In this document: positions 1,955 through 21,500 of the stretch, piece after piece | Numbering within the stretch: position 1 is the stretch's first letter | Layout of the letters: every line of letters begins with the position of its first letter | Origin: Candidatus Thermoplasmatota archaeon | GTDB lineage: Archaea; Thermoplasmatota; SW-10-69-26; JACQPN01; JAIVGT01 | Direction of reading: 5' to 3' | Assembly (NCBI GenBank): GCA_035541015.1 | Contig: DATLFM010000039.1 | Span: 1 to 34,746, forward strand | DNA length: 34,746 bases | Translations under genes and position numbers: made by a program | The notes under the pieces: generated by a model | Told to the model about the DNA's origin: nothing | What the model saw: the letters and a program-made list of their open reading frames with translations, nothing else | Databases searched by the model: none

Positions 1955-1969
1955 TCCGCTCCCACCGCA

Positions 1970-1977: not shown

Positions 1978-1983
1978 TTGCGG

Positions 1984-1993
1984 CTACATAAGC
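1984..1993 (-). promoter_or_regulatory. TATA-like box for regulator copy A
   Basis: The minus-strand sequence GCTTATGTAG stands out in GC-rich DNA. It is centred ~34 bp upstream of the ATG at 1954, a suitable distance for an archaeal TATA box with a very short leader. Confidence 0.45.
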
Positions 1994-2053
1994 GTATCGC
2001 TCGCGCTTTTGGACCGCGCGCGAAGCGTTCTAGGCTCTGGGCGGATCACCACG

Positions 2054-3421: not shown

Positions 3422-3469
3422 GCCGTGCAAAGCGCGAAACCGATCCCTTGAACATTTTCCCTGCATTTT

Positions 3470-4990
3470 TCAACCTCCGCCTGCGCGGCCGGATCCGGCA
3501 GTCGTCGTGGGGAGCCGGTATCGCGGGGAACCGTCCGAATCGTCGCGTCGCAGCTCTCCTGAGGCGGCAAGGAGCCGCAAGTGGTAGTGGACGCGCGCGC
3601 GGGAATGGCCCAGGACGCGGGCGTAGTCGTGCAGCGTGCCGCCCGGCTGCAAAGCCACCGCCTCCAGGACGCGTCGCGCGGGGGGCGAGACGACGCCGCG
3701 GGAGAGCGGCTCGGACCTGCCGGGCGACGTCCAAAGGATGGCGCGCCCGACCACGGTCCGGCGCGCAAGGCCCAGCCGAAGGAGCGTTCGCAGATGGTGC
3801 GCCACCGTCGTGCGGTCGACGCCAAACTCGCGGGCAAGGTGGCTTGCCACGACCCCCTCCTGGCGCAGCAGGCGCTCGTGGATGCTCGCGCGAAGGTCCT
3901 GGCGAAGCGCGGAGTCGGGTCGTATGCGGTGGTACAGAAGCGTTGCCGCCGCGGCCATCGCGGCCGTCGCCCCGGCGAGGATCAGGGAGACGAGCGTGCC
4001 GCCTCGCAGCCATTCGGGCGGCGGAGCGCGCGCGGCCGCCTCCGAGACCACCGATCGCGAGGCAGCAAGCGACGGCACCAAGAGGGCGGCCGTCTCGGGG
4101 TTCGCAAGCGTGGGGGAGACGGCGGCGCTCGGGCGGGGCGGGTTCGGCGCGTCGGCGGTCTCAAGCGCGCCGGCGATTGCGTCGCGACGCGCGGAAAGGC
4201 TCGCGTCCCGTACCGCGACGCCCACGTTGGGATCGGGAGCCGACGCCTCCGGCAGGGTGGGCTCGACGTCGAAGCTCACGCCGGGAACGAGCGTGCGCAA
4301 CGCGTCCCGTTCCGCAAACAGCCGGTCCAGGAGCAGCCAGGCGTCGGCGATGGGGGAAAAGGCGTCCGTGTCGAGGTTGAGAGCCGACGGAACCCAGGAC
4401 GAGCCGTCGACGCGAACCGCGACCGGTTGGAGAGGGGAGGCAACGGAGAGGAACAGGGAATCGTCGAAGAGCCGCTGGACGGCGCCGTTGGCCGTTTGCC
4501 AGATGCAGCGCTCGGTCTCCCCTGGAATCCAGGCCGTGCCGTGGTACGTCTGGCGGAACCCGCAGCGCTCAAGCGCGGGGGGCGTCGGCAGGCTGCCGTC
4601 GGTCTGCCATTCCATGCAAAGGCTGCGCTCCAAGAACAAGCCCGGCGGATGGGAGCCGTCACAACCCAGAAGCTCGAGGTCGAGCGCGGGCGCGCGCGGC
4701 GCCCGATCGCGCGCGTCGCGGGCAAGAGCGTAAGCGCGGATTTCCGCCTCGGGCCCGCGCAACGGGACGTCCGCCGCCGCAGTGAGGGTCGGGCGCTCGA
4801 CGCCCGGCGACGGCGCGTCCAAGGACGCCTCCCGTTCGTCCGCGAGCACGCGCGCCTGGCACCCAAGCCCATGCCAGCCCGCGTCGCACGAGAGCCGCGC
4901 GGGGGCGCCTTCGGCTTCGGCGAGGCCTGCGGCAAGCTGGACGACGACGAGAACGAGAACGAGACGCGGCAATAGCCTCCCCGCAGCCAT
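3470..4990 (-). CDS. Membrane-tethered tandem winged-helix regulator (copy B)
   Basis: This 506-residue protein starts at ATG 4990, where the N-terminus MAAGRLLPRLVLVLVVV forms a signal peptide. The extracytoplasmic region (about 27-328) has cysteines at 35, 44, 110, 125, 143 and 162. A transmembrane helix at about 330-353 is followed by LYHRIRP. The first winged helix is at about 360-420 (DRTTVAHHLRTL) and the second at about 432-494 (SRARVHYHLRLL). The intracellular half closely resembles copy A (464-1954). The sensor regions are much more different, suggesting different signals feeding similar DNA-binding modules; that reading is inference. The subtilase at 2054-3421 follows within 48 bp, and another subtilase ends 73 bp upstream. 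The open frame continues upstream past 4990, but that extension lacks protein-like composition and overlaps the neighbouring subtilase. Confidence 0.88.
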   Translation of the reverse strand: MAAGRLLPRLVLVLVVVQLAAGLAEAEGAPARLSCDAGWHGLGCQARVLADEREASLDAPSPGVERPTLTAAADVPLRGPEAEIRAYALARDARDRAPRAPALDLELLGCDGSHPPGLFLERSLCMEWQTDGSLPTPPALERCGFRQTYHGTAWIPGETERCIWQTANGAVQRLFDDSLFLSVASPLQPVAVRVDGSSWVPSALNLDTDAFSPIADAWLLLDRLFAERDALRTLVPGVSFDVEPTLPEASAPDPNVGVAVRDASLSARRDAIAGALETADAPNPPRPSAAVSPTLANPETAALLVPSLAASRSVVSEAAARAPPPEWLRGGTLVSLILAGATAAMAAAATLLYHRIRPDSALRQDLRASIHERLLRQEGVVASHLAREFGVDRTTVAHHLRTLLRLGLARRTVVGRAILWTSPGRSEPLSRGVVSPPARRVLEAVALQPGGTLHDYARVLGHSRARVHYHLRLLAASGELRRDDSDGSPRYRLPTTTAGSGRAGGG

Positions 4991-5004
4991 TCTCTCCCGC
5001 ACCG

Positions 5005-5012
5005 GGGCTGGA
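5005..5012 (-). promoter_or_regulatory. Motif TCCAGCCC upstream of regulator copy B
   Basis: The octamer TCCAGCCC on the minus strand is 14 bp before ATG 4990. It is the counterpart of the motif at 1970-1977 and is followed by a similar GGTG...GGGAG leader. Confidence 0.4.
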
Positions 5013-5020
5013 GTGGGGAG

Positions 5021-5029
5021 GCTTAAACG
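5021..5029 (-). promoter_or_regulatory. TATA-like box for regulator copy B
   Basis: The minus-strand sequence CGTTTAAGC is the only AT-rich run in this leader. It is centred ~35 bp upstream of ATG 4990. Confidence 0.45.
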
Positions 5030-5063
5030 TGTCGCCCGCTTTCTTTGACGCCGCTTCGCGGTT

Positions 5064-6752
5064 TCAGACGACGTCTCGAACCGCGGGGCGATTGGGGACG
5101 AAAAGCACGTCCCACCGCTCCACGCGCTCGTCCCCGCGCGTGGCGACGAGCAGGACGCCATATGAGCCCGGCGCCTCGTAGTTGTGCACGACAAGCGCGC
5201 CGCGCGCGGCGCTGCCGTCGCCAAAGTCCCACGTCGCCTCCCATCCCGACAGCGCGGGCGGGACCACAAGCGTCGCCGCCAGGTCCTCGACGCTCGCATG
5301 GAACGTCGGCTCCCCCGGTGCGGCGGGGCGGACCGCGATCGTCCTTGCTTCGTTGACCTCGCTGCGGCCGTCGCCGACGACGAGCCGAACCGTGTACGTT
5401 CCGGGCCGCTCGTACGCGTGCGCGACGCGGGGCCCCCACCACACGGTGCCGTCGCCGAGGTCGAAGCGGAAGGTGAGAGGCCGGCCTTCCGGGTCGAACG
5501 ACGGCGAGGCGTCGAGCGCGACGACGGCTCCGCGCACGTCTGCCGACCAACGCGCGACGGGCGGCGCGTCGGGCGCTCCTCCGCCCGGGCAGGCGCCGGC
5601 CATGGCCGCGAGCACCGCCTCGCGCGCATCGAGAAGCCCGTTCCCGAAGTCCGCGTCGCGGCCGGGAGCGCCAAGGTCGCGCGCCGAGCACTCAAGGGCG
5701 CGCCGCACGTCCGAGGCGGAGAGAAAAGGCGCGGCCGACCACGCGAGGATCGCGGCGCCGGCGACCGAGGGCGCGCTCACCGACGTTCCCGTCCGGTGCA
5801 GGTAATGGTCGTCCTGGCCGCTCCAGGGGCCAAGCGCGTTTTCCCCCGGCGCCACGAGGTCGACCTCCGGCCCGCGCGGCGAGAACCCGCACCGCTTAAG
5901 GGAAAGCGTCGCGCACCCGACCGCGAGCACGTCCGGGTAGCGTGCGGGAATCGAAACGCAGCCGTCGCAGCCGCGGTTCCCCGTCGCGGCCACGAGCAAG
6001 ATGCCGGCCGCCGCCGCGCGCTCCACCGCACGCGCCAGGACGGGACTCTCCTTTCCCTCCTCGTCTCCCAAGCTCAGCACGACAACCATTCGCGGCTCGG
6101 GTTGACGCGCGCACCATCCGATCGCCGAGGCCACGGCCGCGTCCGTGCCCCGGCCGCTTGCGTCGAGCGCCTTGGCCGCGTACACGCGCGCCGTGCCCGC
6201 CACGCCGGCCACCCCCACGCCGTTGTCGGAGGCCGCCGCCGCCACGCCGGCCACAAGCGTCCCATGCCCATGATCGTCGTAGGGCTCCTCGCGGCCGGCC
6301 ACGAGATCCACGAACCCGGCCACGCGGCCCGCGAACTCCTCGTGCGTGCCGCGAAGGCCCGTGTCGACGACGCACAGCGCCGCGCTTGCCGCAAGCGGCG
6401 CGAAATCCCACGCCCGCGGCGCCTCGATCGCAAAGAGGTTCCGCTGGTCCCAGAACCGCGGATCGTTCGGAAACCACGCGGCGGCAAAGGCCGTTTCGGG
6501 GCTCACGAAGGAAACCTCACGATCCTCCGCGGCGTGCGCGCGAAAACGCGTGGCGTCGAGCGTGCGCACCACGGCGAAGGCGAGATCGTCGTCCACGCGC
6601 ACGACGGTCGAATCCCACCGGCGCTCCCCGGGGGAAACGTGAGCGCCGAGCGCAAGTCCGACGATCCATGTCGACGGCGCTTCGACGGGAATCGCCCCTG
6701 AGAGCGCGGGGGAAAGCATGGCCAGCGCAAGGCCGGCAGCGGCAAGACGCAT
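5064..6752 (-). CDS. Secreted subtilisin-like protease with two PKD domains
   Basis: This 562-residue S8 protease starts at ATG 6752 with a clear signal peptide (MRLAAAGLALAMLSPALSGA). After a short propeptide-like region, the catalytic domain spans about residues 98-380. The triad is Asp130 in VVDTG, His163 in HGHGTLVAG and Ser324 in TGTSVSAPS, with the oxyanion Asn259 in ATGN. Two PKD-type beta-sandwich domains follow, at about 398-475 (FDLGDGT, Y..PGTYTVRL) and 482-552 (WDFGDGS, YEAPGSYGV). PKD domains in secreted proteases often assist binding to substrates or surfaces. The gene is divergent from the DUF99 gene across 98 bp, and its stop is 73 bp before the regulator at 3470-4990. It is more diverged from the subtilase at 2054 than a recent duplicate would be. 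Confidence 0.95.
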   Translation of the reverse strand: MRLAAAGLALAMLSPALSGAIPVEAPSTWIVGLALGAHVSPGERRWDSTVVRVDDDLAFAVVRTLDATRFRAHAAEDREVSFVSPETAFAAAWFPNDPRFWDQRNLFAIEAPRAWDFAPLAASAALCVVDTGLRGTHEEFAGRVAGFVDLVAGREEPYDDHGHGTLVAGVAAAASDNGVGVAGVAGTARVYAAKALDASGRGTDAAVASAIGWCARQPEPRMVVVLSLGDEEGKESPVLARAVERAAAAGILLVAATGNRGCDGCVSIPARYPDVLAVGCATLSLKRCGFSPRGPEVDLVAPGENALGPWSGQDDHYLHRTGTSVSAPSVAGAAILAWSAAPFLSASDVRRALECSARDLGAPGRDADFGNGLLDAREAVLAAMAGACPGGGAPDAPPVARWSADVRGAVVALDASPSFDPEGRPLTFRFDLGDGTVWWGPRVAHAYERPGTYTVRLVVGDGRSEVNEARTIAVRPAAPGEPTFHASVEDLAATLVVPPALSGWEATWDFGDGSAARGALVVHNYEAPGSYGVLLVATRGDERVERWDVLFVPNRPAVRDVV

Positions 6753-7566: not shown

Positions 7567-8622
7567 TCAGGGCTTCCACGATTCGATCGTGCCCAGACGC
7601 GAAAGCTCGCTCTTGAGCCGCCCGATGACCTCGACGGGCGTGGGATCCACGTTGCGCAGGCGGGCCAGGTAGTAGCTCGTCCAGTCGCCAAGGTACACGA
7701 CGGAGAACAGGTTGGCGAGGAAGTCGCCCCCGCTTGCGGCAAGCCGCGCGACGGCCGCGCCGCGCTCCCGCGCGACCGTCTCCATGAACCGCGCGCGCTC
7801 CTCGTTGGCGCGCCCGGCCTCGGGGCCCGTGACGATCGCAAGCGCCACGCGCGAGGCGTCGTCGCCCGACCACCCGACGAGGTCGTTGTGGCAGATCTCG
7901 GGGATGGCGCCGTGGAAGGCGAGGACCTTCCCGTTCTCGGAGAGCTCGTTTGCAAACCGCCGCGCGGCGATCGCGTAGGGCCCAAGGCCGTAGCAGACGG
8001 CGATGCGGCCGACGAGCGCTTGCGCGATCGCGCGAGCTTCGTTCTTGTCGGCGGGCGCGTCGGGCGTGAGCGCGGGCGCAAGCTCGGCGACGGCGGCAAG
8101 CGCGGCCTTGCAGGAGGCGCCAGGGTCGGGCACCGCGCCCCATTTCGAGAGCGCGAAGGCGAGCGGAATCGTGAGGTAACCGGCGGCGGCGCGGGGCTGG
8201 AAGCCCTTGGGGAGCGCGACGACGTCGACGCTTGCGGCCTGCGCGCGCGCGGCGAGCTTGCCGCCGGTCGTGACCGCAAGGCGCGCGGCGCCGCGCGAGC
8301 CCGCAAGTTCGAAGGCGGTGAGGGTTTCCTCCGTGTCGCCGGAATAGGAGAGGGCGACGACGAGCGTGGAGTCGTCCACGAACGAGGGCAGGCCGTAGTC
8401 GTGGTGGAGCACGATGGGCGTGCGGCCGCCCTCGCGGGAGGCCCAGGCGGCCACGAGGGCGCCGCCGATGCCCGAGCCGCCCATGCCGCAGACGACCACG
8501 CGCGAGACGGGGCGCGTGGCGCGGGGCGCAAACGCGCGGCCGATGGCGATCGCGTCGCGCACCTGGTCGGGGAAGCCCGTCAGGGAGGAGCCCACGCTTC
8601 CGTCGTTCATGCAAGCCCTCAT
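7567..8622 (-). CDS. Bifunctional phosphoglucose/phosphomannose isomerase
   Basis: This 351-residue SIS-domain isomerase interconverts glucose-6-phosphate or mannose-6-phosphate with fructose-6-phosphate. It is the archaeal/crenarchaeal-type enzyme rather than the cupin PGI. Visible features are the first SIS motif VVVCGMGGSGIGG (about 42-54), the phosphosugar-binding SYSGDTEET (about 92-100), and the C-terminal active-site region IPEICHNDLVGW with the conserved His. It supplies hexose phosphates for glycolysis or gluconeogenesis and mannose for surface glycans. The start may be ATG 8622 or ATG 8610; the latter leaves more room for a promoter in the tight divergent gap with the DUF531 gene. 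It ends next to the phased GTATAC array. Confidence 0.93.
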   Translation of the reverse strand: MRACMNDGSVGSSLTGFPDQVRDAIAIGRAFAPRATRPVSRVVVCGMGGSGIGGALVAAWASREGGRTPIVLHHDYGLPSFVDDSTLVVALSYSGDTEETLTAFELAGSRGAARLAVTTGGKLAARAQAASVDVVALPKGFQPRAAAGYLTIPLAFALSKWGAVPDPGASCKAALAAVAELAPALTPDAPADKNEARAIAQALVGRIAVCYGLGPYAIAARRFANELSENGKVLAFHGAIPEICHNDLVGWSGDDASRVALAIVTGPEAGRANEERARFMETVARERGAAVARLAASGGDFLANLFSVVYLGDWTSYYLARLRNVDPTPVEVIGRLKSELSRLGTIESWKP

Positions 8623-8648
8623 GCGGGCCTTGCCGGATAGGGGTTTCG

Positions 8649-9242
8649 ATGGTTCGCACCGACGGACGGGGGCCGCGACTCACGCTCGGATTGTACAATT
8701 CCTACGATCCCGCCCGGTTCCACGAGCAGCACCGCCGGACGCTTGCGCGCGTGGCGCCGCTCGCCATGGCCTACGATTGCAACGTGGCCACGTTCGGCTT
8801 TCCCTTCGACGAAGGGCGGCGCCGCGAGCGGCCCACGGGCGTGGACCTCCGCACGCCCGTGGAGATCGCCGACTTCGTGGCCGACAGCACGACGATCGGC
8901 GAAGGCGGCAAGTACTTCCGCGAGCTCGCCTCCGCGGGTCGCTTCGCCGCCTTCCCGTTCCCGGACCCGGGGTTCCCGCCGCAGCTCGGGACGGTCGTGC
9001 TCACGACGAGCCGGGCCGAGGGCGCAAAGGCGCTTTCGCTGCGTCAGGCGCGCGAGCTTGTCCGGCGCGAGTCGGCGACGTTTGTCTTCGGGCTTGGGCC
9101 CCACGGCGCGCCGCGCGAGGTGTTCGGGCAGGCGCGGCACCTTTTCGACGTGACGGGCCGGGGGCTCAGCCTCGAGACCGCCACGGCCATGGGCGCCGTG
9201 GTGGGCGCGCTTGCAGCCGACCGCGCGGCAGGAGGAGCCTAG
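8649..9242 (+). CDS. DUF531 family protein
   Basis: This 197-residue protein matches the archaeal DUF531 family: LTLGLYNSYDPARFHEQHRR near the N-terminus, the mid-protein NVATFGFPFD, and a C-terminal GLGPHGAP followed by TGRGLSLETATAMGA. The C-terminal pattern resembles SPOUT-type RNA methyltransferases, so a nucleic-acid methylation role is conceivable, but this is only resemblance. The ATG at 8649 lies 26 bp from the divergent PGI/PMI gene. Its stop overlaps the ribosome-binding region of the NUDIX gene that begins 1 bp later, indicating an operon. Confidence 0.85.
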   Translation: MVRTDGRGPRLTLGLYNSYDPARFHEQHRRTLARVAPLAMAYDCNVATFGFPFDEGRRRERPTGVDLRTPVEIADFVADSTTIGEGGKYFRELASAGRFAAFPFPDPGFPPQLGTVVLTTSRAEGAKALSLRQARELVRRESATFVFGLGPHGAPREVFGQARHLFDVTGRGLSLETATAMGAVVGALAADRAAGGA

Positions 9243-9243
9243 C

Positions 9244-9669
9244 GTGGCGACGCCCGGGCGCCCCGAGTCGCCGCGGCTCACCGTGGACGGCATCGTTCCG
9301 TTGGACGGTGGGGTGGTCCTCGTGCGTCGCGGTCGGCCCCCCTTCGCGGGTCGCTACGCGTTGCCCGGTGGGTTCGTCGACGTGGGGGAGACGACCGAGG
9401 CCGCCGTCGTGCGCGAGGTGCTCGAGGAGACGGGCCTGGCGACGCGCGTTTCGCGGCTTGCAGGCGTGTACAGCGACCCTTCGCGCGACCCGCGGGGCCA
9501 CACGGTGAGCGTCGCGTACGAGCTGTCGCGGCTGGGTGGAACCCTTGCGGCCGGCGACGACGGCGCGGAGGTCGGAATCTTCCCGCTCGGTCGGTTGCCG
9601 GACCTCGCCTTCGACCACGCGAAGATCCTTTCGGAGTGGATGCGCAGCCTCCCTGGAAAGCCTATATAG
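9244..9669 (+). CDS. NUDIX hydrolase
   Basis: This 141-residue protein carries a complete NUDIX box. It starts GGFVDVGE and, after a TTEAAVV linker, ends REVLEETGL, which fits GX5EX7REUXEEXGU. Such enzymes split nucleoside diphosphates linked to another moiety using Mg2+. The length and DGGVVLVRRGRPPFAGRYALPGG context suggest an ADP-ribose or nucleotide-sanitising pyrophosphatase; the substrate is not determinable. The GTG 9244 start is chosen because a strong GGAGGA lies 7 bp upstream and the DUF531 stop ends at 9242. An in-frame ATG at 9211 would overlap DUF531. Its own stop lies inside the TATA box of the PCNA gene. Confidence 0.93.
   Translation: MATPGRPESPRLTVDGIVPLDGGVVLVRRGRPPFAGRYALPGGFVDVGETTEAAVVREVLEETGLATRVSRLAGVYSDPSRDPRGHTVSVAYELSRLGGTLAAGDDGAEVGIFPLGRLPDLAFDHAKILSEWMRSLPGKPI
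9662..9669 (+). promoter_or_regulatory. TATA box of the PCNA gene
   Basis: CTATATAG is a near-ideal archaeal TATA box about 40 bp before the PCNA ATG, predicting a leader of ~15 nt. It overlaps the stop codon of the NUDIX gene, so the replication genes can be transcribed separately from the upstream operon. Confidence 0.7.
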
Positions 9670-9705
9670 GCGCGGAGGGTTTCCCGCCCGTCGAAGGGAT
9701 TTTCC

Positions 9706-10446
9706 ATGTTCGAGGCCCGCTGCAAGGCCGACGTCCTGCGCACCGTCATCGACGCCATCTCGACCCTCGTGGACGAGGTCAAGCTCAAGGTCGGGAAGGA
9801 CGGCCTCTCGCTGCGCGCCGTGGACGCCGCGCGCGTCGCCATGCTCGACCTTACGCTATCGAAGGGCGCCTTCGTCACGTACAAGGCCGAGGACCGCGAG
9901 CTTGGCCTTGACGTCGACAAGCTCAAGGAGGTCCTCAAGCTCGCCCAGTCCGAGGACGAGATCACCTTCACCCTCGACGAGGAGGGCAACCGCCTCGTCA
10001 TCCGCATCGGCAACCTCGTGCGCCGCATGAGCCTCGTGGACACCTCGGCCATGGCAGACGCCCAGATGCCCAAGCTCGAGTTCCCCGCCACGATCGCAAT
10101 CGCCGCCTCGGAGCTCGAGCGGGGCGTGCGGGCGAGCGAGGCCGTGGCCGACCACATCGAGCTTCGCGCCACGCCCCAGCAGTTCGAGCTTGCGGCCGCC
10201 GGCGACACCGACGTCGTCAACCTCGCGCTCGACAAGAAGCAGCTCACGAACCTTCGCTGCTCGGAGAACGAGGTCCGATCGCTCTTCTCCCTCGACTACT
10301 TCGGCCACATGGTGAAGGCGGCCAAGGGAGCAAGCGACGTGACGATCTCGCTGCGCACGAACTACCCCGTCAAGCTCGACTTCGACATCGCCGGCGGCAA
10401 CGGGCACGTGACCTTCCTGCTGGCCCCGCGCATCGAGAGCGAATGA
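9706..10446 (+). CDS. pcn: DNA polymerase sliding clamp PCNA
   Basis: This 246-residue PCNA forms the trimeric ring that tethers replicative polymerases, FEN1, ligase and other factors to DNA. The N-terminal MFEARCKADVLRTVIDAIS, the central LVDTSAM region and the C-terminal PVKLDFDIAGGNGHVTFLLAPRIESE are classic. The last segment includes the TFLLAPRIE strand that contacts PIP-box partners. Length and composition are normal for the family. Its TGA overlaps the ATG of priL as ATGA, so clamp and primase large subunit are translationally coupled. Only one PCNA gene is seen here. Confidence 0.98.
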   Translation: MFEARCKADVLRTVIDAISTLVDEVKLKVGKDGLSLRAVDAARVAMLDLTLSKGAFVTYKAEDRELGLDVDKLKEVLKLAQSEDEITFTLDEEGNRLVIRIGNLVRRMSLVDTSAMADAQMPKLEFPATIAIAASELERGVRASEAVADHIELRATPQQFELAAAGDTDVVNLALDKKQLTNLRCSENEVRSLFSLDYFGHMVKAAKGASDVTISLRTNYPVKLDFDIAGGNGHVTFLLAPRIESE

Positions 10447-11646: not shown

Positions 11647-12576
11647 ATGCACGTCGCACGATGGCTTCGCACGATGGCAGCCTTGTTGACCGCAACCCTG
11701 CTGGCCGGCTCAGGGGCTCTTCCTGTAGGCGCCGGGCCGCGGCCCGCCGTGGACGAATGCGTGCTCGCGGGAGGCGGAGACGGGATCCCCACCGCCTCCG
11801 GCTGCCCACCGTCGGTGTCGCCCTTCTGCGTGGAGGACCTCCGGGAGCGGCACGTGCAGGTGATCTACGCTCGTGCGCCCGACGGCGAGGACCGGTACGA
11901 GCTGTTGCTGCCGGACATCCGCGCGCACGTCAAGCTCGCAAACGGCGTCGTGTACCGTGAGGGCCTCGTGTTCGGCCGCGACATCCGGTTCCGCATGGCT
12001 TGCGAGGCCGACGGGGAGGTGTCCGTAAGAAACGTGGTGATCGGCTCCATGCGCGATCGGGACCCGACCTGGAGCTCTTTCTCCATCCTGGCGGAGCTCA
12101 AGGCTCAAGGCTACGACCGCAACAACGTGAAGTACCTCGTCGTGATCGACCGGACGCTGGGAGGCGGCGGCTGGGCGTACCCAATGTACTACGACAGCCG
12201 ACCCGGCCCCGAGAACGCCAACAACAACCGTGTCGCCTACGCCGTGGTCGGCAAGCCCAACTTCGAGGTCATGATCCACGAGCTTGGCCACACGCTGGGC
12301 GCCGTGCAGGCAAACGCGCCCCACTCGCAGCCCAACGGCCACTGCAACGAGGGCCAGGACTACATGTGCTATTCGGACTGGTGGCAAAGCGAACCGCGCG
12401 ACGCCCGCGATCTGTCCTACAACGGATTGCGCTGCACGGACCGAGAGTACTTCGACTGCGGTTACGACGATTACTTCAATCCCGACCCGCCGCCCGGAAG
12501 CTACCTCGACCGCCACTGGAACCTTGGACGCCCGGCCAACGGGTTCTTCGAGTTCCGGCCGCTGGCGGCTCCCTAG
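11647..12576 (+). CDS. Secreted HExxH zinc metalloprotease-like protein (copy 1)
   Basis: This protein of about 309 residues starts at ATG 11647, with a signal peptide (RWLRTMAALLTATLLAGSG). ATG 11674 is possible. The catalytic motif HELGHTLGAVQ places zinc ligands His211 and His215 and catalytic Glu212. About 20 residues later comes NGHCNEGQDYMCY, whose Met240 may form a metzincin-like Met-turn. Cys233 and Cys241 could pair, and His232 or an acidic residue may be the third ligand. I do not recognise a named peptidase family; activity is inferred from the motif. The protein at 14518 is a paralogue sharing HVQVIYARA, the zinc region and the C-terminal DYF.P.PPPGSYL..HWNL. It is followed by a membrane-tethered regulator. 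Confidence 0.85.
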   Translation: MHVARWLRTMAALLTATLLAGSGALPVGAGPRPAVDECVLAGGGDGIPTASGCPPSVSPFCVEDLRERHVQVIYARAPDGEDRYELLLPDIRAHVKLANGVVYREGLVFGRDIRFRMACEADGEVSVRNVVIGSMRDRDPTWSSFSILAELKAQGYDRNNVKYLVVIDRTLGGGGWAYPMYYDSRPGPENANNNRVAYAVVGKPNFEVMIHELGHTLGAVQANAPHSQPNGHCNEGQDYMCYSDWWQSEPRDARDLSYNGLRCTDREYFDCGYDDYFNPDPPPGSYLDRHWNLGRPANGFFEFRPLAAP

Positions 12577-12724
12577 GACGTATGCGTTCGGGCGCGTTAC
12601 CGGCGGAGCGGACGCAAGCATTAAGCGATGCGTAGGAGACGAGCGGGTGGGAGAGGAGCGTGGAGCCCCCAACGATCCGCACGCGGCACGCAGGGGAGCG
12701 GACGCCGGGGACGGTTCCGGCAAG

Positions 12725-12741
12725 TTGGGGCAAGTTTCATG
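12725..12741 (+). promoter_or_regulatory. Candidate shared element TGGGGCAAGTTTCAT
   Basis: This sequence, 33-49 bp upstream of the regulator start at 12774, nearly matches TGGGGCACGTTTGAT at 14477-14491, which is upstream of the second metalloprotease. It could be a binding site for one of the local winged-helix regulators. Confidence 0.25.
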
Positions 12742-12773
12742 ACCGCCCGCGCGGCAAGGCCGCCGGGAGAGGC

Positions 12774-14429
12774 ATGCGGCAGGCAAGCATCGCGATCGGC
12801 CTTCTGCTCGCCGCGCCACGCGCCGTGAGCCGGTCTTGTCGTTTGCCTCCTGCGCGCCTGCCTGGCCCCCGCCGCAAGGGAAGCCGCGGGCTTCCCCGGC
12901 GCCTGGCCGATCTTTCCGTCGCCGGCGCCGTGCTGGCGGCTGCGCTTGCCGCGCCGACGGCAAGCGCCGCCGACTGCTCGCAGGCGCCTCTGGCCTGCTG
13001 CCTTGTCGACGCCATCCTCCACGTGGGATGGGTCGACGCCCCATGCCGCAACTCGCACCACCTCGTGGCCGCCCATCTTCTGGAGGGAAGCCGGACCAAG
13101 GCTTCCGTCCAGCCGCTTGCGGGCGTGCTCGTGGAGATCGCATTGGATCCCTCGCATCTTGCCGCCGACTCCGACGAACCCTTTCTTCGCCTGCGGTACG
13201 AAGCGGGCTTCCAATCGATGCACGCGGGGGCTCCCGATCTCGTGGAGCTCATCCGGCTCGTGACCTCGACCCGGGCGCACGGGCAGACGAGCGCGTCCGT
13301 GGAGCTCTTCGTTCCCTGCGCAAGGTCGGTCGCCCGCGCCTGGGCGGGAGCCGGAGGAGGCCTTGCCGGGGAGGGCGCCGCCGCGGAACACAATTTCGAC
13401 GGCGACGCCCGCGCGGTGTGCGGCGCAATCCTCGCGAGCCTCCCCTCGCCTTCCCGCCCGGACGTTCCGGGTCCGCCGGCGGTCGCTCCCCCGGATGCGG
13501 GCGAAGCCGCGGTTGCCCATCGTGACCCCGCCCCGGTCCCGGGCGTCGGGGATCCGGTCGCCAAGGCGGCTCTCGACGTGGCCGGCGCCGCCGGCGACGC
13601 GCGCGCCAGCGCCCGCCTCGACTGCGAAGCGCCCTTGGTCACGCAGGACGCCTGCCACGCGAGCTTCTCGACGCCCGACGTGCTGGCCGTGCCGGCGGAG
13701 CCCGGCCCGCCACCGCAGGAGCCCCCTTCGCCCTCGGAAGCTTCCGGGGGTCATGCGCCTTCCTCCTCACGCGCCGACAAGGAATCGACGCCGTCGATCC
13801 CGTCGGCGGCGGACCCGCGCGGGGTCCTCCCTGGCTACGGTCCCGCAGACTCGGGGTCGTCCCGGGGCAGCCTGGCCGCCGCGCGGCCGGCTCCCCCGGC
13901 CCCTTCGCCGGCGGAGGCTTGGAGCGCCCTGCTGACGCTGGCGGCCCTTGCGGGCGGGCTCTACCACCGGATCTCCCGCGAAAGGGCCCTCGAGCAGGAG
14001 ACGCGCCGCAGCGTCTACGAGCTCATCCGGCGGGAGCCGGGGCTCCGCACGGGGACCGTCGCGGCGCGCCTGGGCTTGAGCTACAAGACGGTCGGCGCCC
14101 ACCTGCGGTACCTCGCCCAGTTCGGCTACGTCGAAGGGATCGGGGACGGGCAGCGCCGCTACTTTGCCACCGGCTCGATTTCCTCGGCGGACAAGCGCCT
14201 CCACCTCGCCGCCTCGCGCCCCGCCTCGCGCCTCGTGCTCGAGTTCGTGCGCGAGCGGAAGACGGTGGCCTTGGCCGACCTTCGCGCCGCCTTGGCGATG
14301 CCCAAGGCGACGGCCACGTCGGCTGTGCGGGCCCTGCAAGCGGCCGGGCTCGTGACGGTGCGGCGCGAGGGCCGTTTCGTCTTCGTCTCGGAGTTTCCCT
14401 CGCGCCAGGCCGAGAAGCCACAGCCGTGA
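12774..14429 (+). CDS. Membrane-tethered tandem winged-helix regulator (copy C)
   Basis: The predicted protein is about 551 residues from ATG 12774, chosen for the GGGA core 5 bp upstream. A GTG at 12660 and a GTG at 12827 are in frame, and the true start is uncertain. The strongest signal-peptide-like segment is LADLSVAGAVLAAALAAPTASA at about residues 42-65. A cysteine-containing extracytoplasmic region follows, then a long Pro/Ala/Ser-rich linker (about 220-380). A single transmembrane helix lies near 383-398, followed by LYHRISRE. The first winged helix (about 403-465, recognition helix YKTVGAHLRYLAQFG) and the second (about 480-545, PKATATSAVRALQAAG) complete the cytoplasmic part. It sits between two secreted metalloproteases and is probably the partner of one of them (inference from position). 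A remnant of a similar gene lies at 15528-16000. Confidence 0.85.
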   Translation: MRQASIAIGLLLAAPRAVSRSCRLPPARLPGPRRKGSRGLPRRLADLSVAGAVLAAALAAPTASAADCSQAPLACCLVDAILHVGWVDAPCRNSHHLVAAHLLEGSRTKASVQPLAGVLVEIALDPSHLAADSDEPFLRLRYEAGFQSMHAGAPDLVELIRLVTSTRAHGQTSASVELFVPCARSVARAWAGAGGGLAGEGAAAEHNFDGDARAVCGAILASLPSPSRPDVPGPPAVAPPDAGEAAVAHRDPAPVPGVGDPVAKAALDVAGAAGDARASARLDCEAPLVTQDACHASFSTPDVLAVPAEPGPPPQEPPSPSEASGGHAPSSSRADKESTPSIPSAADPRGVLPGYGPADSGSSRGSLAAARPAPPAPSPAEAWSALLTLAALAGGLYHRISRERALEQETRRSVYELIRREPGLRTGTVAARLGLSYKTVGAHLRYLAQFGYVEGIGDGQRRYFATGSISSADKRLHLAASRPASRLVLEFVRERKTVALADLRAALAMPKATATSAVRALQAAGLVTVRREGRFVFVSEFPSRQAEKPQP

Positions 14430-14476
14430 GGGCCGAGGGCGTCGTGCGCCTGATCCTTCCGTACGGTTCCAAGAAT

Positions 14477-14491
14477 CTGGGGCACGTTTGA
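14477..14491 (+). promoter_or_regulatory. Candidate shared element TGGGGCACGTTTGAT
   Basis: This is the second occurrence of the element at 12725-12741, with 13 of 15 positions alike. It lies 27-41 bp upstream of the metalloprotease start at 14518. Confidence 0.25.
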
Positions 14492-14517
14492 TTTTGCAGC
14501 CAGGGCTCCCGTGGGCG

Positions 14518-15531
14518 ATGAGAGCCGTCTTCGCTTCCCGTGCCTGGCCTTGGGCCGCCTTCGTCCTTGTGGTTGCCGTGGGGGCATCCGCGCTTCCGTT
14601 GCTCGCCCTGCAGGCGGCATCCGACGAGTCGGTTTCGCGCTCGGTGGGGGAACTTCGCAATCCATGCTTGTCGGAAGGCGCAGGCGATTTCATGCCGTGG
14701 TTTGGGGCCTGCCCGAATCGGGTGCCGCCCGATTGCGCGCCGACGTCGGCACCGCACGTCCAAGTGATCTACGCGCGCGCCTCCGACGCGCCGGATCGGT
14801 TCGAAACCATGGCGCCCAAGGTACGAAAGCTCGTCGAGCTTGCCACGGGCGCCATCGACCGCGAGGCACGGCTGTTTGAGCATGAGGGGCGGATTCGGGT
14901 CGCGTGCAAGGACGGCCAGGCCGACGTCGCAAACGTTGTCTTGGCGGTGACGGCCGAAAACGCCACCTTCCGCCGCATCAAGGACGATCTGGCGGCCGTC
15001 GGTTACGGTCGCGCGGGCGTGAAGTATTGGGTCTGGTATGACGGGCGGAGCATCGAAGGCGTCGCCGGGCTCGGCGATTTCCGGCAGGACCATCGGCTGG
15101 CCCCCGACAACGAGAACGTGATCGAGCGAGGGTATGCGGTCACCTTCGGAATCGAGAGTTGGATCGTGATGCTCCACGAGCTTGCCCACACGATGGGCGC
15201 TGTCCAGCGGTCCTCTCCCAACGCGACCGCGTACGGCCACTGCCTCGACGGCCAGGACATCATGTGCTACGACGATCGGTTCCTCGATCCGCGGACGACG
15301 CGGGACTTGATGCCCTACAATCCAGCCGCATGCATCGACTACGAACATTTCGACTGCAACCACGACGACTATTTCCACCCGGAGCCCCCACCGGGATCGT
15401 ACCTTGCCACGCACTGGAACTTGGCGCATCCGTACAACGTGTACCTCCGCGTGACGCGCGCAAGCTCGATCGAGGATTCCGGGAAGTTGGGCGCAAACCC
15501 AAAACCCCTCGTGCAAGTCGGTGAGACATGA
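14518..15531 (+). CDS. Secreted HExxH zinc metalloprotease-like protein (copy 2)
   Basis: This protein of about 337 residues starts at ATG 14518, whose product begins with a signal peptide (MRAVFASRAWPWAAFVLVVAVG). A TTG at 14488 would add ten residues. The motif HELAHTMGAVQ gives zinc ligands His220 and His224 and catalytic Glu221, followed by YGHCLDGQDIMCY with the putative Met-turn. The C-terminal DCNHDDYFHPEPPPGSYL matches the paralogue at 11647, confirming a duplication, but the sequences are well diverged. Its stop overlaps an ATG (ATGA at 15528) that opens a decayed frame resembling the regulator family. Confidence 0.85.
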   Translation: MRAVFASRAWPWAAFVLVVAVGASALPLLALQAASDESVSRSVGELRNPCLSEGAGDFMPWFGACPNRVPPDCAPTSAPHVQVIYARASDAPDRFETMAPKVRKLVELATGAIDREARLFEHEGRIRVACKDGQADVANVVLAVTAENATFRRIKDDLAAVGYGRAGVKYWVWYDGRSIEGVAGLGDFRQDHRLAPDNENVIERGYAVTFGIESWIVMLHELAHTMGAVQRSSPNATAYGHCLDGQDIMCYDDRFLDPRTTRDLMPYNPAACIDYEHFDCNHDDYFHPEPPPGSYLATHWNLAHPYNVYLRVTRASSIEDSGKLGANPKPLVQVGET

Positions 15532-16000
15532 CCTCTCGATCGCGAGCCCGTTCGTATGCGACATTCCTCCTGGTTGCCTGCCTGATCGCGCGGGCCACTC
15601 CGGGCCCGGCCGCCGTGCGCGGGCCCCCGTCCGACTGCGCGTTGGCCAAGGGTGCGACGGTATCCTAACCGAGGGGTGCCGGCACCCGGAGCGCTCGCAG
15701 GCGCGGCCGATGGCGGGTCGCCCAAGGGCGCCGATTCGGCGGTTCTTGCCGGCTTGCCCGGCAAGGATCACGTCTTCGGGGTGGATGTGCGCATCGAGCT
15801 TCAGCGGACATTCGTCGCAGCTTGAGGCGCCAGGGTCACAGGTCGAGCAACTTTGTCGTCAGATTTTGCGGCGGCTCGCGTCGCCCACGCCTGCCGCAGG
15901 CGTCCCCCGTTTGGCCGACGCGGAGGGGTCGGCGTCCCTGCAGCCCGGGGAAGAGGCGGACGGCGCGAACCCCGGAGCGCAAACCCCCTGCGCCTCTTGA
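15528..16000 (+). pseudogene. Decayed relative of the membrane-tethered regulator sensor region
   Basis: The ATG at 15528 overlaps the preceding stop and encodes 46 residues that look like a signal peptide (YATFLLVACLIARATPGPAAV) followed by a PSDC motif, ending at TAA 15668. Protein-like sequence continues in the next frame (GKDHVFGVDVRIELQRTFVAA, stop near 15824). It then continues in the third frame (VEQLCRQILRRLASPTPAAGVPRL, stop at 16000). The last piece resembles copy C around ARAVCGAILASLPSPSRPDVPGPP. I read this as a regulator gene broken by at least two frameshifts, with no trace of its transmembrane helix or winged helices. An alternative is that only the 46-residue secreted peptide is real. 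Confidence 0.45.
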
Positions 16001-16530
16001 GCCCGACGAAGCCATGGTCCAAACTCGCGCCCGGTTGCAGGTTGCGGCCGACTCGCCCGACCTGCCACGGCCGCGCAGGCAACGAACAGGGGCGACGACG
16101 CGGGACAAACGTCAAGCTGCGCCCCCAAGACGGCCTAACCGCCGCTCCTGTTTTTCTCGAAGTGCGCGCGCACCTGCTCGATGGAGGAAGCACGAGGAAC
16201 TCATGAGCGTGCTCCAACCGTGCAACTTGGGGTTTTCCTCCGACAACGAAGGGCATTGGATCGGGCATGGCCGCAAACCGCGGGACCTGAAGCGAGGAGA
16301 TCTTCGGCGACCGCGTGGGCCGACGAGCAGGCGGACCACAAGCCTTATGAATTTGGCGGCGGGGGACTGTAGGCAAGCCATGTTCCCCCAGCCGGAAACC
16401 GGTCCTAGTTTATCGGAGGCGGCGGGCCGCCAGAGACGAAGGGTCGTCATTGGCGGGCTCTCCACCCTCCAGGCAGATTGGGTGCAGATTGAAGCCAATC
16501 GTCGCCGACGGCGGGCGGGGTGAAAGATCC
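16001..16530. other. Non-coding or eroded stretch
   Basis: No convincing gene is seen on either strand in these ~530 bp. Open frames here have biased, low-information composition rich in Arg and Pro. Two AT-richer runs occur, CCTTATGAATTTGG near 16343 and CTAGTTTATCGG near 16405. Either could be a promoter for the regulator at 16531, but both are 120 bp or more from its start. The stretch probably includes the remainder of the decayed gene upstream. Confidence 0.5.
16517..16523 (+). promoter_or_regulatory. Ribosome-binding site that fixes the GTG start at 16531
   Basis: GGGGTGA is complementary to the archaeal 16S rRNA 3' end and is spaced 7 nt from GTG 16531. It decides the start in favour of the short form of regulator copy D. 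Confidence 0.65.
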
Positions 16531-17730
16531 GTGGCCGCGAGAGGGGCGCGTTTGCTTGTCGTAAGCGCGTGCATCGCGCTTGCGCCTGCGGCAGGCGCAG
16601 CACCGGACATGAATGCGTGCCCGTTTGGCAGCCCCACATGTGCGCCTAACTTTGGCACGGGGTCCGACGCGGGAGTTCAGGGAACCGGGGAAGCTTCCAT
16701 CCATGGGCCCTGCAGCGGCGAAGATTTGGAGTTCACCTTCGAAGCCGACCCGTCGTCAACGGGGCAACGCAAGCGGCTTGCAGCGAAACCTCCTGCGTGC
16801 CCGATGGACTCCAATCCCACGTTTGCGCCCGAGCCCGCTCGAGCCGCCGCCCAGGAAGTTCTCGGTGCAAGCGTCCAGGCCCGCGTCGATCCGGGGTCAA
16901 GCGAAAGGCCTCTCTTCGTCCAGGGCTCGTGCAAACTTCCCATCTTTGGGGGGGAGAAAGAGTTCTGCTCTCTCGAAAGCCCGGAAACTGAAGCCCATCT
17001 TCCCATCCCTTCGCCTGAACGCTCGGGACCACTGCCCTTAGAGACTGGCGCGCCGGGACCAGCGGGCGTTGCAACGCTTGCTCCGACCACGGCAAGCCCT
17101 ACGACGCAAGCGACAACCTTGGACCCCGTCTCTCGGAGCGAGAGCTCACTTTTCGACCAAACCCGGATTTCGGCGCTGCCGCGAGGATCCGCGTTGGAAC
17201 CCCAGAACCCTCTGCCGCTTGTAGGCCTTGCGATCGGTACCCTTCTGGCCGCCGCGTACGCCTTGTACCATCGCATCTCGCGTCAGGACGTCCTTGCCCA
17301 TCCTTTGCGCTCGCGCATCTACGAGTTCATCTGCGCAAACCCGGGCGTGCGTGTGGGTGCCATTGCCCGCCACCACGGCGTTGCCTACAAGACTGCGCTG
17401 GCGCACGTCTTGACGTTGCATCGCTTGGGCGTTCTGGACCGGGCCGGAAACGGGCACGCGCGGTGGTTTGCAAGCGGGCGTTCGTCACCCAGCGCCCGGA
17501 AGGAGATTCTCGCGACGACGGCGCCCGCGACGGCCGCTGTCCTCGCCCTCGTACGCGCACGGGGTTCCATGTTCCAGATCGACATTCAATCGGAACTTGG
17601 CCTGCCCAAATCGACGGTGAGCGCCGCGACAAGCCGTTTGGCGGCCGATGGGTTGGTTCAGCTGCTGCCCGCCGGCCGCACGCGGCAAGTGGTGGCGGTG
17701 CAGCGCACGCCTCCGGCGGGATCTTCTTAG
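16531..17730 (+). CDS. Membrane-tethered tandem winged-helix regulator (copy D)
   Basis: This 399-residue protein starts at GTG 16531. The start is supported by a strong ribosome-binding site, GGGGTGA at 16517-16523, and an immediate signal peptide (ARLLVVSACIALAPAAGA). A TTG at 16450 is in frame but lacks such support. A ~200-residue extracytoplasmic region with several cysteines leads to one transmembrane helix at about 228-248 and the family's LYHRISRQ. The winged helices are at about 255-315 (AYKTALAHVLTLHRLG) and 325-390 (PKSTVSAATSRLAADG). It resembles copy C more than copies A and B. It lies next to an exported protein of unknown function at 17834, which may be its target. Confidence 0.85.
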   Translation: MAARGARLLVVSACIALAPAAGAAPDMNACPFGSPTCAPNFGTGSDAGVQGTGEASIHGPCSGEDLEFTFEADPSSTGQRKRLAAKPPACPMDSNPTFAPEPARAAAQEVLGASVQARVDPGSSERPLFVQGSCKLPIFGGEKEFCSLESPETEAHLPIPSPERSGPLPLETGAPGPAGVATLAPTTASPTTQATTLDPVSRSESSLFDQTRISALPRGSALEPQNPLPLVGLAIGTLLAAAYALYHRISRQDVLAHPLRSRIYEFICANPGVRVGAIARHHGVAYKTALAHVLTLHRLGVLDRAGNGHARWFASGRSSPSARKEILATTAPATAAVLALVRARGSMFQIDIQSELGLPKSTVSAATSRLAADGLVQLLPAGRTRQVVAVQRTPPAGSS

Positions 17731-17833
17731 CGCTGCCCACGCGGGGCCCGCGAACGTCCGTGATCGTCCGTTAGAGCCAAGCTTCGGCGAGATTGGGGGG
17801 GACCTTTTCTTGCTTCTCGCCGATCGCTCGGGC

Positions 17834-19258
17834 ATGAGCGGAAACCGTGCGGTGCCGGCAGCGTCGTGGACCGTCTTCTCAGCTTTGCTGCTTCTCCTTC
17901 CCTCGGCCGCTGCTCTGCTGGGAACGATCGAACGCTCTGAACACGGGCCGGCGATCGCCCTTCCCATCGACGTGAATCCGAACCCGTCGTTGCCGCAGCG
18001 TACCGTCGGCGACTTCCTGTGGGAGAAGCGGATCCCGTACCTTGGACGAATTACGCTCAACGAAGAAGATCACCGTGCAAGGGGCCCCCTGGACATTCGG
18101 GTTCCGTGGTACGAGTCGCGAGTCGACGTGGTCCTTCGCGGCGCCCCACCTGTGCTGACCGTCGGCACAGGGGGCGACAATTCTGCCAGTTTCAACGATC
18201 CTTTGCCTTGGACCCTGATCCTGCCGATGGAATACTCCGGCACGCTTCCCAATTTCGGGTATACGATCCTGCACGACGGACGCCTGGCAATGACGTCCAT
18301 GCCCATGTCCACGGGCGATACGATTTTCTGGAACGTACCCGTCGTCGAGGGCACGTACTACATTCAGTACGGGGCGCCTTGGCTCTGGCCGCGCGAAGGG
18401 GACTGGTGGCGGTGGGACTACATTCTGCGTCTGCACGTCGACGAGCCAGCCCCCGACGGCTTCGAGGAGGGAGAGTCAACCGGTGCAGAAGAGCTTGCAC
18501 CCCTTGCCCACTCGTATTCTACGGCTTCGTACCGGCCATCCTCGTACCCGGCCCCGCCCTCTTGCATGGCGCGCGGAAACAGCCAAAAATACTGCGAGTG
18601 GCAAGAAAAGCAGCCCAAGAGGGTGTGGGATGAAGTTGGCGATGTTGTTGTAGGATCGGTCCACACGGTGACGCCTCCTAACGGCGTCGCATACGACCTG
18701 AAAATCTACTATAGGCTCTGCGCAAAGGTAACCGTTCATTCGAAGGCAAGCGGCGGGTTTGCTGCCGGCCCGACCAGCTGGGGAGGTTATTACCAGACGT
18801 TCCGGGCGCGTGAAGAATGCACGGGCCAGTTGGCGGGCGCAGAGCACGGAACATGGGAACTTTTCCGACCCGGTATGTTCGGCGTTGCCGAGTATGCGGA
18901 TGGCAGCATGAAGAAGTACTTCAAGGGGTTTGTGAAGAACACCGCGGAAAACCCGAGGCTCGTTGGAAATCCGGGACCGCTCAACCCGCCTCACGACGCA
19001 ACTCTTATCAAGGTACCCGCTGGGATGCAGAGGGACCTCACCTACACCTCTGAGCGGGGCTCGAAAGCCGTCATTTCGGCTGGCGCCAAAGTCGCAAGCT
19101 GGTTCCTTGATGTCGAACTCGAGACCGATAACGAGCACCAATCGTACGTAGTTATCAGCATCGCCGCAAACGTCGACACGTGCTTCAAAGTATGGGGTTA
19201 CGAAGGAGCCCACATGTCGATTCGTCCGGCGATTGTCTGGGTTCGTTGTCCCGAATGA
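17834..19258 (+). CDS. Exported protein of unknown function
   Basis: The predicted protein is 474 residues from ATG 17834. The N-terminus has a signal peptide (AASWTVFSALLLLLPSAAALL). The mature part is rich in aromatic residues and beta-prone. The middle (~residues 215-255) is Ser/Tyr/Pro rich (YSTASYRPSSYPAPPS) and looks like a linker between two domains. The second half has paired cysteines (CMARGNSQKYC, LCAKV, EECTG, DTCFKV, VRCPE). No transmembrane helix or enzyme motif is seen, and I do not recognise the family. It begins 103 bp after regulator copy D on the same strand. Codon choice is somewhat less GC-rich than in neighbouring housekeeping genes. Confidence 0.75.
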   Translation: MSGNRAVPAASWTVFSALLLLLPSAAALLGTIERSEHGPAIALPIDVNPNPSLPQRTVGDFLWEKRIPYLGRITLNEEDHRARGPLDIRVPWYESRVDVVLRGAPPVLTVGTGGDNSASFNDPLPWTLILPMEYSGTLPNFGYTILHDGRLAMTSMPMSTGDTIFWNVPVVEGTYYIQYGAPWLWPREGDWWRWDYILRLHVDEPAPDGFEEGESTGAEELAPLAHSYSTASYRPSSYPAPPSCMARGNSQKYCEWQEKQPKRVWDEVGDVVVGSVHTVTPPNGVAYDLKIYYRLCAKVTVHSKASGGFAAGPTSWGGYYQTFRAREECTGQLAGAEHGTWELFRPGMFGVAEYADGSMKKYFKGFVKNTAENPRLVGNPGPLNPPHDATLIKVPAGMQRDLTYTSERGSKAVISAGAKVASWFLDVELETDNEHQSYVVISIAANVDTCFKVWGYEGAHMSIRPAIVWVRCPE

Positions 19259-19300
19259 GACGTTGCTGCAGAACCGTCCTGCTATCTTGGTAGGAAGCTT

Positions 19301-19786
19301 ATGCCGCCGGCGGCAAACCCGAGGGTCATGCGCATTGCACTGGCTCTCGGGTTTCTCGTCGTCGGCTTTCCGCCGGCGGTGGCGTCGGACGGCCTTGGCT
19401 GTCTCCCGTGGGAAGAATGTCCCATCGCCGCCTGGTTCGAGTCCAAGGCGGAATGCTCCGCATCGACCGATCGATGCGTGCTGGACGTTTCGGGCGTGGC
19501 CACCGCCACCGGTTGGCTAGAGCCCGTGGTGATGTCGTGTCAACTGGACGGGCCCGACGGCAGTCGCGCGAGCAACGAAGCGATCGGTGCCGGCCGAGCG
19601 CAATGCCGCGCGCGCCTGCGCCTTGAGGTCTCGATCGCGCCGGGCCAGTGCACGTGGATCCCCGGATTCCGGTTCGGGGCCAAGGTCACGGGCCTGCTTA
19701 CAGGGGGGTCCGCCGAGCGCATCTTGGCCGCAGACCTTCGGGCATGCAACAAAGCGAACGCGGTGCCGGACGGGTTGGATCGGTGA
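19301..19786 (+). CDS. Small exported cysteine-rich protein of unknown function
   Basis: This 161-residue protein starts at ATG 19301 with GGAAG 5-9 bp upstream; ATG 19328 is an equally good alternative, preceded by GAGGG. It has a signal peptide (MRIALALGFLVVGFPPAVA) and then seven cysteines within ~125 residues (GCLPWEECP, ECSAS, RCVLD, SCQLD, QCRAR, QCTWIPG, ACNKA), suggesting disulfide stabilisation outside the cell. No family is recognised. Its stop overlaps the GTG start of the next gene (GTGA), so the two exported proteins are translationally coupled. Confidence 0.75.
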   Translation: MPPAANPRVMRIALALGFLVVGFPPAVASDGLGCLPWEECPIAAWFESKAECSASTDRCVLDVSGVATATGWLEPVVMSCQLDGPDGSRASNEAIGAGRAQCRARLRLEVSIAPGQCTWIPGFRFGAKVTGLLTGGSAERILAADLRACNKANAVPDGLDR

Positions 19787-21492
19787 GCGGCGTGACGCGC
19801 AGCGCAGCGGTTCTGATCGTGCTCGCGACGCTTCCCCTCGGCGCCTTCGAGACCGACGCGGGCGCGCACGCGCCGGTCCGCGCCCTTTCGTTCCAGGATC
19901 TCCTCGAGCCTCTCGACGCTTCCGTTGTGAGGCTTTGGGGGTCCCATGCGTGGACGCTCGACACCGCCGAGCTTCCCGACGGCGGGACTACGATGCTGCG
20001 CACTGTCTCGGAGGGGCCCGTCCAGGGGGCCAGCATCCTGACCGACGACGTCGAGTACATCTCCTTCTACGCGCGCGCGATCCCCCAGACGCCCTCGGTG
20101 GGAGCGGGCTGGCTTTCCGTCCGCATCGACGGGGAACGCGCCGACACCGTCAACCTGCTGGCGTGGCCTTCGGCGTGGGTTCCCTTCACCCTTCGGTTGG
20201 GCGGAGGGATCCACGCCGTCGAATGGACGGTGTCGGGTAGAAGCGGGGGCGTTGCCTTCGAAATCGAACTCGTCGGCCCCTCGAATCGAGCCCCTCCGTC
20301 CCAAGTCGCCCCTTTGTCCATGCATTGGCCTGAAATCCCGGCGCGCGTGGAGTTCGTATGCCGGGTGCCCGACCTCGTCGTGCGAATCCGTGACGTGGCC
20401 GACCTCGGTCTGGCGCGTGTCGAGGCGTTCCTGGACGGTGAAGCTCTCCGCGGCCTGAGCTTTGGTGCGGGGACTCGGACGGCCAATGGTGTCATGGGCA
20501 CTTATCGGGTCGGATGGCTTCACGAGGGGCTCCTTGTCATCCCGCTTGGCAACTTGCCGCCAGACCGCGACGTACCCTTCCGCCTCACCGTGCGCGATGT
20601 GACCGGTGAAGCTCGGTTGGACTTCGGGACGATCTTGCGATTCAAGGACACGATGAGCGTGCACGTGGATTTGAGGAACCGCCAGCCCGACCCGAACCTT
20701 CGCGGGAACGTCGTTTTCGATTGGTTCAATTCCGCCGACGGATACATGTACGAGCGCAAGCCCCGAATGGTCTCCACGTTGAGGGGTTGCATCGACGGAG
20801 CGACGATCGACTGGTTCGTCGATGGAAGTATCGTGCCCGGCAGCGCCACGCAGGCGATCGCGCAATTCACGACAATCGGGCGGGACGCCCAGGGGCTCGT
20901 CGTAACGCTCTGGTCCCCGACGGAGCTTGCCGCGGAGTACCTTTTCGGGACGCTCGACTATGGATCGGCGCACCGGGTCGAGGCACGTTGGCTCCTTTCC
21001 AACGGTGAAGATCGGTCTGCGAAAGTTGAGTTCGTGGAAGGTTTGGATGTCCGCCACATCCGGCTTGCCCCCAGCGAGCTGCCGCGCGCGTGGTTGTTTG
21101 GACTCCGATTGCCTCAAGGACCCGGATGGGGGTACGGAGTTTCGATCGCCGGCTGCTCGCCGTACCTCGGGCACGTAGCGCCAAGGCTCGAAACGCCCGA
21201 CCTTAACCTGATCGTCCCGGGCGATGGCTGGGTCGAATTGCTCGCGGAGCACGCCCCGCACCGGCTTGAGGTCGTCGCCGGAATTCCGATTCTCCAGGCG
21301 AATCAAGTCTACGCCCCCAGCAACGACGACCGATTCACATCGTTCTACCAACTCAACGCTCGGCTCCACATCAGGACGTTTGCCGATCCCGACGCATCGG
21401 AAACACCTCTTTCCGAACGAGCACTGCGATACTTTGGTCAACTGGTGGAGGCCGCCGTTCGGAGCGGATCCTCAGATGCGGCGACGGTTTGA
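19783..21492 (+). CDS. Large exported protein of unknown function
   Basis: This 569-residue protein starts at GTG 19783, which overlaps the previous stop as GTGA; GTG 19792 is possible. The N-terminus VSGVTRSAAVLIVLATLPLGAF is signal-like. The remainder alternates short hydrophobic strands (RVEFVCRVPDLVVRIRDV, RLHIRTF) with Gly/Asp turns, suggesting an all-beta multi-domain extracellular protein. There is no C-terminal membrane anchor, and only four cysteines are seen. No catalytic motif or known domain is recognised. A hairpin at 21501-21519 follows the stop and probably ends this plus-strand block. Confidence 0.75.
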   Translation: MSGVTRSAAVLIVLATLPLGAFETDAGAHAPVRALSFQDLLEPLDASVVRLWGSHAWTLDTAELPDGGTTMLRTVSEGPVQGASILTDDVEYISFYARAIPQTPSVGAGWLSVRIDGERADTVNLLAWPSAWVPFTLRLGGGIHAVEWTVSGRSGGVAFEIELVGPSNRAPPSQVAPLSMHWPEIPARVEFVCRVPDLVVRIRDVADLGLARVEAFLDGEALRGLSFGAGTRTANGVMGTYRVGWLHEGLLVIPLGNLPPDRDVPFRLTVRDVTGEARLDFGTILRFKDTMSVHVDLRNRQPDPNLRGNVVFDWFNSADGYMYERKPRMVSTLRGCIDGATIDWFVDGSIVPGSATQAIAQFTTIGRDAQGLVVTLWSPTELAAEYLFGTLDYGSAHRVEARWLLSNGEDRSAKVEFVEGLDVRHIRLAPSELPRAWLFGLRLPQGPGWGYGVSIAGCSPYLGHVAPRLETPDLNLIVPGDGWVELLAEHAPHRLEVVAGIPILQANQVYAPSNDDRFTSFYQLNARLHIRTFADPDASETPLSERALRYFGQLVEAAVRSGSSDAATV

Positions 21493-21500
21493 GCCGGAGA

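Follow-up and report, generated by a model that had tools for sequence, protein, structure and literature searches.

Probable tandem duplication of a secreted protease and a membrane-anchored regulator, with both regulators intact, in an archaeal genome

The stretch of archaeal DNA analyzed here (the window, all 34,746 nucleotides of contig 39; the draft genome measures 2.2 Mb in 114 contigs and is 96% complete) raises the question of whether a two-gene unit of protease and regulator was duplicated, with one of the two regulators subsequently decaying. A preliminary description had given the order as metalloprotease 1, regulator C, metalloprotease 2 and broken regulator-like frames, and had taken the presumed loss as support for treating protease and regulator as a functional pair. 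The open reading frames bear out this order. Elsewhere, the window carries genes for PCNA and the large primase subunit, which identify the host as an archaeon. It has no RNA genes at Rfam gathering thresholds and no tRNA genes. Two lipoprotein-like genes on the reverse strand (25564-26112 and 26639-27133) look alike, in that a brief hydrophobic run and AGCLG form the start of each protein.

The two proteases, P1 (11647-12576) and P2 (14518-15531), both lie on the forward strand and are clear paralogues, as had been proposed. The proteins are 44-45% identical (44% over 268 amino acids, E = 5e-66), each has a hydrophobic N-terminal segment, and both carry the HExxH, GHC...MCY and PPPGSYL motifs, which occur as HELGHTLGAVQ...GHC...DYMCY...PPPGSYL in P1 and as HELAHTMGAVQ...GHC...DIMCY...PPPGSYL in P2. 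A genome-wide count of the family returned P1 and P2 only. Both appear to be secreted, metzincin-like metalloproteases; their scores against the Pfam Reprolysin families, 25.2 bits for P1 (Reprolysin_5, E = 2.2e-5) and 16.2 bits for P2, fall under the curated cut-off of 27 bits. Inspection of the active-site region revealed that the zinc motif of metzincins, HExxHxxGxxH/D, is replaced in both proteins by HExxHxxGAVQ, with glutamine at the position of the third ligand, for which the invariant H241 or D247 may be alternative candidates. The Met-turn methionine is present as the invariant M249, within DIMCY in P2 and DYMCY in P1, and a structural model of P2 shows a partial alpha/beta fold, of low confidence, whose best PDB matches in a fold search are metzincins (ADAM/ADAMTS, OgpA and Amuc_1438).

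Relatives of these proteases were found in 6 of 390 genomes of the phylum, the present one counted in, and in the actinomycetotal genera Lentzea and Actinokineospora; none was found in the one genome of the same family, which is about 76% complete. One homologue (locus L019 of genome G002, about 8361-9800, reverse strand) contains an in-frame TGA inside the catalytic region that is either a sequencing error or the mark of a decayed gene. A distant relative, G076, has five copies of the family, and a tandem pair on its contig 32 (L023, 8974-12334) has no adjoining regulator.

Between P1 and P2 lies RegC (12774-14429, forward strand; candidate starts are ATG 12774, GTG 12825 and GTG 12930), in which a signal or transmembrane segment is followed by a Pro/Ala-rich ectodomain of more than 300 amino acids, a putative transmembrane segment, a juxtamembrane YHRIS and two winged helices (MarR_2, 1.1e-8; HTH_20, 3e-7; HTH_metalloreg, above cut-off). 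Downstream of P2, the second regulator is neither lost nor decayed: an intact gene of 399 codons, RegD (16531-17730, forward strand), begins 1 kb past the protease, 531 bases beyond position 16000, where the preliminary description had ended its interval. The preferred start is the GTG at 16531 (alternative, 16534), with GGTGAAAG just before it. RegD has an N-terminal hydrophobic segment, an ectodomain, one predicted transmembrane helix (17212-17292, residues 228-254 of the model, where a continuous helix coincides with a hydropathy segment near residue 226) and a DNA-binding region of tandem winged helices (17293-17715; MarR_2, 4.4e-8; DUF7343, 8.7e-7). An AlphaFold model of the protein likewise shows a tandem winged helix, with pLDDT mostly 77-96, and a disordered ectodomain.

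The relationship between the two regulators is close. Of the 54 matches to RegD in the genome, RegC scores highest, at 94.9 bits, and the runner-up reaches 68.4; a search of eleven other genomes with RegD returned nothing closer, the best score being 60.6 bits. RegC and RegD group as sisters (support 100/97) in a tree built from 54 aligned DNA-binding domains, of which 53 belong to the present genome and one to a relative, and 200 of 200 bootstrap trees recover this clade. Their ectodomains share no detectable similarity, and that of RegC matches nothing else among the sampled genes. RegD also differs from its surroundings in composition: its codon bias is weak, and GC at its third codon positions, 0.65 for the ectodomain and 0.76 for the DNA-binding part, is below the 0.79-0.92 of most other genes in the window. 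Rapid evolution, acquisition of the gene or relaxed selection may account for this. Because of this weak bias, a gene caller seeded with genes of the window missed RegD, which was entered by hand. More broadly, positions 14500-21500 stand out by a lower GC content and a weaker codon bias, with GC at third positions of 0.65-0.79 where the rest of the window mostly has 0.84-0.92; besides P2 and RegD, this segment encodes secreted-looking proteins (17885-19258 and 19783-21492) that match no Pfam family.

What, then, of the spacer of about 1 kb between P2 and RegD (15532-16530), whose first part, up to 16000, had been described as broken regulator frames? The features listed for those frames are partly real, in that a 46-codon open reading frame with a signal-peptide-like N-terminus is present at 15528-15668, its ATG overlapping the P2 stop as ATGA, and CRQIL is encoded at 15854-15868. 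The likeness of CRQIL to CGAIL of RegC (13419-13433) did not stand. The two agree at three of five residues, the best pentamer match of the spacer to the RegC ectodomain is 4/5, and all 60 of 60 random 480-bp windows compared with that ectodomain yield matches of 4/5 or 5/5; the resemblance is trivial. Nor did a frameshift-tolerant DNA-protein alignment of 15528-16530 with the ectodomains and DNA-binding domains of RegC and RegD bear out a decayed regulator: the scores were reached by 106-172 of 300 shuffled proteins and by 95-220 of 300 random genomic windows, and the same procedure applied to RegD DNA and the RegC domain gave 274. In this test, the spacer resembles neither regulator beyond chance. 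A phmmer search with the three frames of the spacer gave no support for a regulator remnant, no Pfam match was found in 15532-16530, and a search of nine genomes with the spacer DNA returned fragments shorter than 50 bases only. An unfiltered blastx with composition correction switched off produced low-complexity, Arg-rich matches only and was discounted. Codon-based frameshift scoring likewise gave the spacer 10.3 on the forward strand and 12.6 on the reverse (P2 scores 84), such that no coding signal exceeds that of the reverse strand.

These results bear on two alternative readings of the spacer. Conceivably, the partner of P2 decayed and survives as the frames at 15528-16000, RegD being an additional paralogue in its own right. 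The short reading frame would suit this idea, since the hydrophobicity of its start is equalled by 2.6% of comparable shadow frames, as would the length of the spacer, which is among the longest of the sampled gaps (6 of 457 are at least 900 bp). The frame itself has no Pfam match and may mark where a lost gene began or may be a product of chance; it is a weak hint of a former gene, and the sole one in the spacer. Against a decayed partner stand the lack of beyond-chance similarity to the ectodomain or DNA-binding half of either regulator, the absence of any winged-helix remnant, and the sister relationship of RegD to RegC, by which RegD fills the very place expected of the lost regulator. A DNA-binding remnant should have shown up, and a remnant consisting of ectodomain alone could escape recognition because ectodomains in this family diverge beyond detection, as those of RegC and RegD do. 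On balance, we consider a decayed partner improbable. That the spacer holds a gene which is intact in reality and looks broken through errors of assembly or sequencing would be in keeping with a draft genome of 114 contigs, and is still less credible, indeed highly improbable: the codon signal in every frame is at or below that of the reverse strand, and frameshift errors alone would not erase such a signal. The spacer is probably non-coding DNA, in which traces of an unidentifiable former gene may or may not persist.

As for the origin of the array, the sister relationship of RegC and RegD, the same order and strand of the genes, and an insertion of 8-9 residues that P1 and P2 have in common (the R[DT]xRDLxxYN region) and that other aligned homologues lack fit the duplication of a two-gene block, as the preliminary description had proposed. 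P1 and P2 group together in 52% of bootstraps of the protease tree, so the evidence for duplication of the block comes chiefly from the regulators, together with the insertion, and it is possible that the proteases have independent histories. One may suppose that a regulator alone was duplicated, or that the proteases came separately, the adjacency of protease and regulator being incidental in a genome rich in both. The modest grouping of P1 and P2 would agree with this, as would three order-level relatives whose protease has no adjoining regulator (two of these homologues adjoin ribosomal-protein-like genes instead). We regard this alternative as rather unlikely, given the insertion common to P1 and P2 and the strict alternation of protease and regulator in two separate arrays of one window.

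The second of these arrays occupies 464-6752 on the reverse strand and also runs protease then regulator, in the order subtilase S8b (5064-6752; Peptidase_S8, 8.4e-45; PKD domain, 8.2e-28), RegB (3470-4972), subtilase S8a (2054-3421; Peptidase_S8, 1.2e-38) and RegA (464-1954). Both subtilases are predicted to be secreted and lie directly upstream of RegB and RegA, respectively, and these two regulators have the architecture of RegC and RegD by hydropathy and Pfam matches. RegA and RegB are sisters in the 54-domain tree (support 100/97), yet S8a and S8b are not, a discordance that speaks for regulators duplicating alone; a grouping of S8a and S8b as a duplicated pair was recovered in 0% of bootstraps and was rejected. 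Beyond the window, subtilases lie close to regulators about as often as chance predicts (1.9 expected, 3 observed among 20), which again favors incidental adjacency. Secreted proteins make up 28 of 84 neighbors of regulators and 25 of 117 distant genes, a weak enrichment (p = 0.07; p = 0.32 with the window excluded), and with neither count showing a firm excess, protease-regulator pairing as a genome-wide rule was rejected. At one other locus (L061, contig 52, 3206-10910), four consecutive regulator paralogues are followed by a subtilase. Taking these lines together, the P1-RegC-P2-RegD locus is probably a tandem duplication of a block of protease and membrane-anchored regulator in which both regulators are intact, and it looks like an ordinary tandem duplication without a decayed regulator. 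Since pairing is absent in the order-level relatives that carry the protease and not above chance elsewhere in the genome, the proposal of a functional pair draws weak support from the two arrays, which make a protease-regulator link plausible in the present window.

With both regulators present, the natural experiment that loss of a regulator would have provided is gone, and no argument for pairing can be drawn from decay. The remaining interest lies in the two arrays of the same order and in the size of the regulator family, of which the 2.2-Mb genome encodes about 50 members with tandem winged helices (54 DNA-binding-domain matches), many with a transmembrane helix and ectodomain; the family is also seen in genomes G001-G004 and G076. 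No orthologue in the relatives is closer to RegC than about 66 bits, and in the short flanks of the relatives' regulators neither an S8 nor a HExxHxxG motif was present, with GDAGG matched once. Judging by their predicted domains, RegC and RegD would be members of a family of transmembrane transcription regulators (TTRs) that has expanded in this archaeon. In the topology we infer, an N-terminal signal or anchor is followed by an extracellular ectodomain of variable, low-complexity sequence, and a single transmembrane helix links this to the two cytoplasmic winged helices at the C-terminus. Most likely, the ectodomain would read an envelope or extracellular condition, and the regulator would set the transcription of nearby secreted-protease genes from the membrane. 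A more direct coupling strikes us as a long shot: the secreted protease from the gene just upstream would cleave or shield the ectodomain, proteolysis outside the cell would thereby gate a transcription factor held in the membrane, and subtilase and metzincin-like classes would each have been recruited to the task. The two arrays provide a concrete set for asking whether archaeal transmembrane regulators control adjacent proteases.

Among known systems, the Lentzea and Actinokineospora secreted proteases share the catalytic core of P1 and P2 at 37-40% identity, but have longer C-terminal regions. Metzincins of the M12B/reprolysin-like type resemble P1 and P2 in the HExxH helix, the Met-turn-like DIMCY/DYMCY and the alpha/beta topology, whereas P1 and P2 differ from them in having glutamine for the third zinc ligand and a conserved GHC and D-x-MCY downstream. 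On the regulator side, TTRs have been surveyed in bacteria and archaea as single polypeptides that combine a DNA-binding domain with at least one transmembrane region (PMC10269533), a definition that the present regulators appear to fit: both have a predicted DNA-binding domain (MarR_2/HTH_20 in RegC; MarR_2/DUF7343 and the modeled tandem winged helix in RegD), and the transmembrane region is predicted directly in RegD and by homology in RegC, whose own hydropathy segment beside the DNA-binding region falls under the threshold used. They depart from the surveyed TTRs in their C-terminal tandem winged helix and in their number, about 50 in one 2.2-Mb genome as compared with an archaeal average of 4 +/- 2 per genome (PMC10269533). 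ArnR and ArnR1 of Sulfolobus acidocaldarius are likewise archaeal membrane-bound one-component regulators and, as here, a paralogous pair, with targets that differ in part (PMC6396743). In ArnR, the HTH is N-terminal and two transmembrane helices lie at the C-terminus (PMC6396743), a layout that is reversed in RegC and RegD, where an N-terminal ectodomain and one predicted transmembrane helix precede the C-terminal winged helices.
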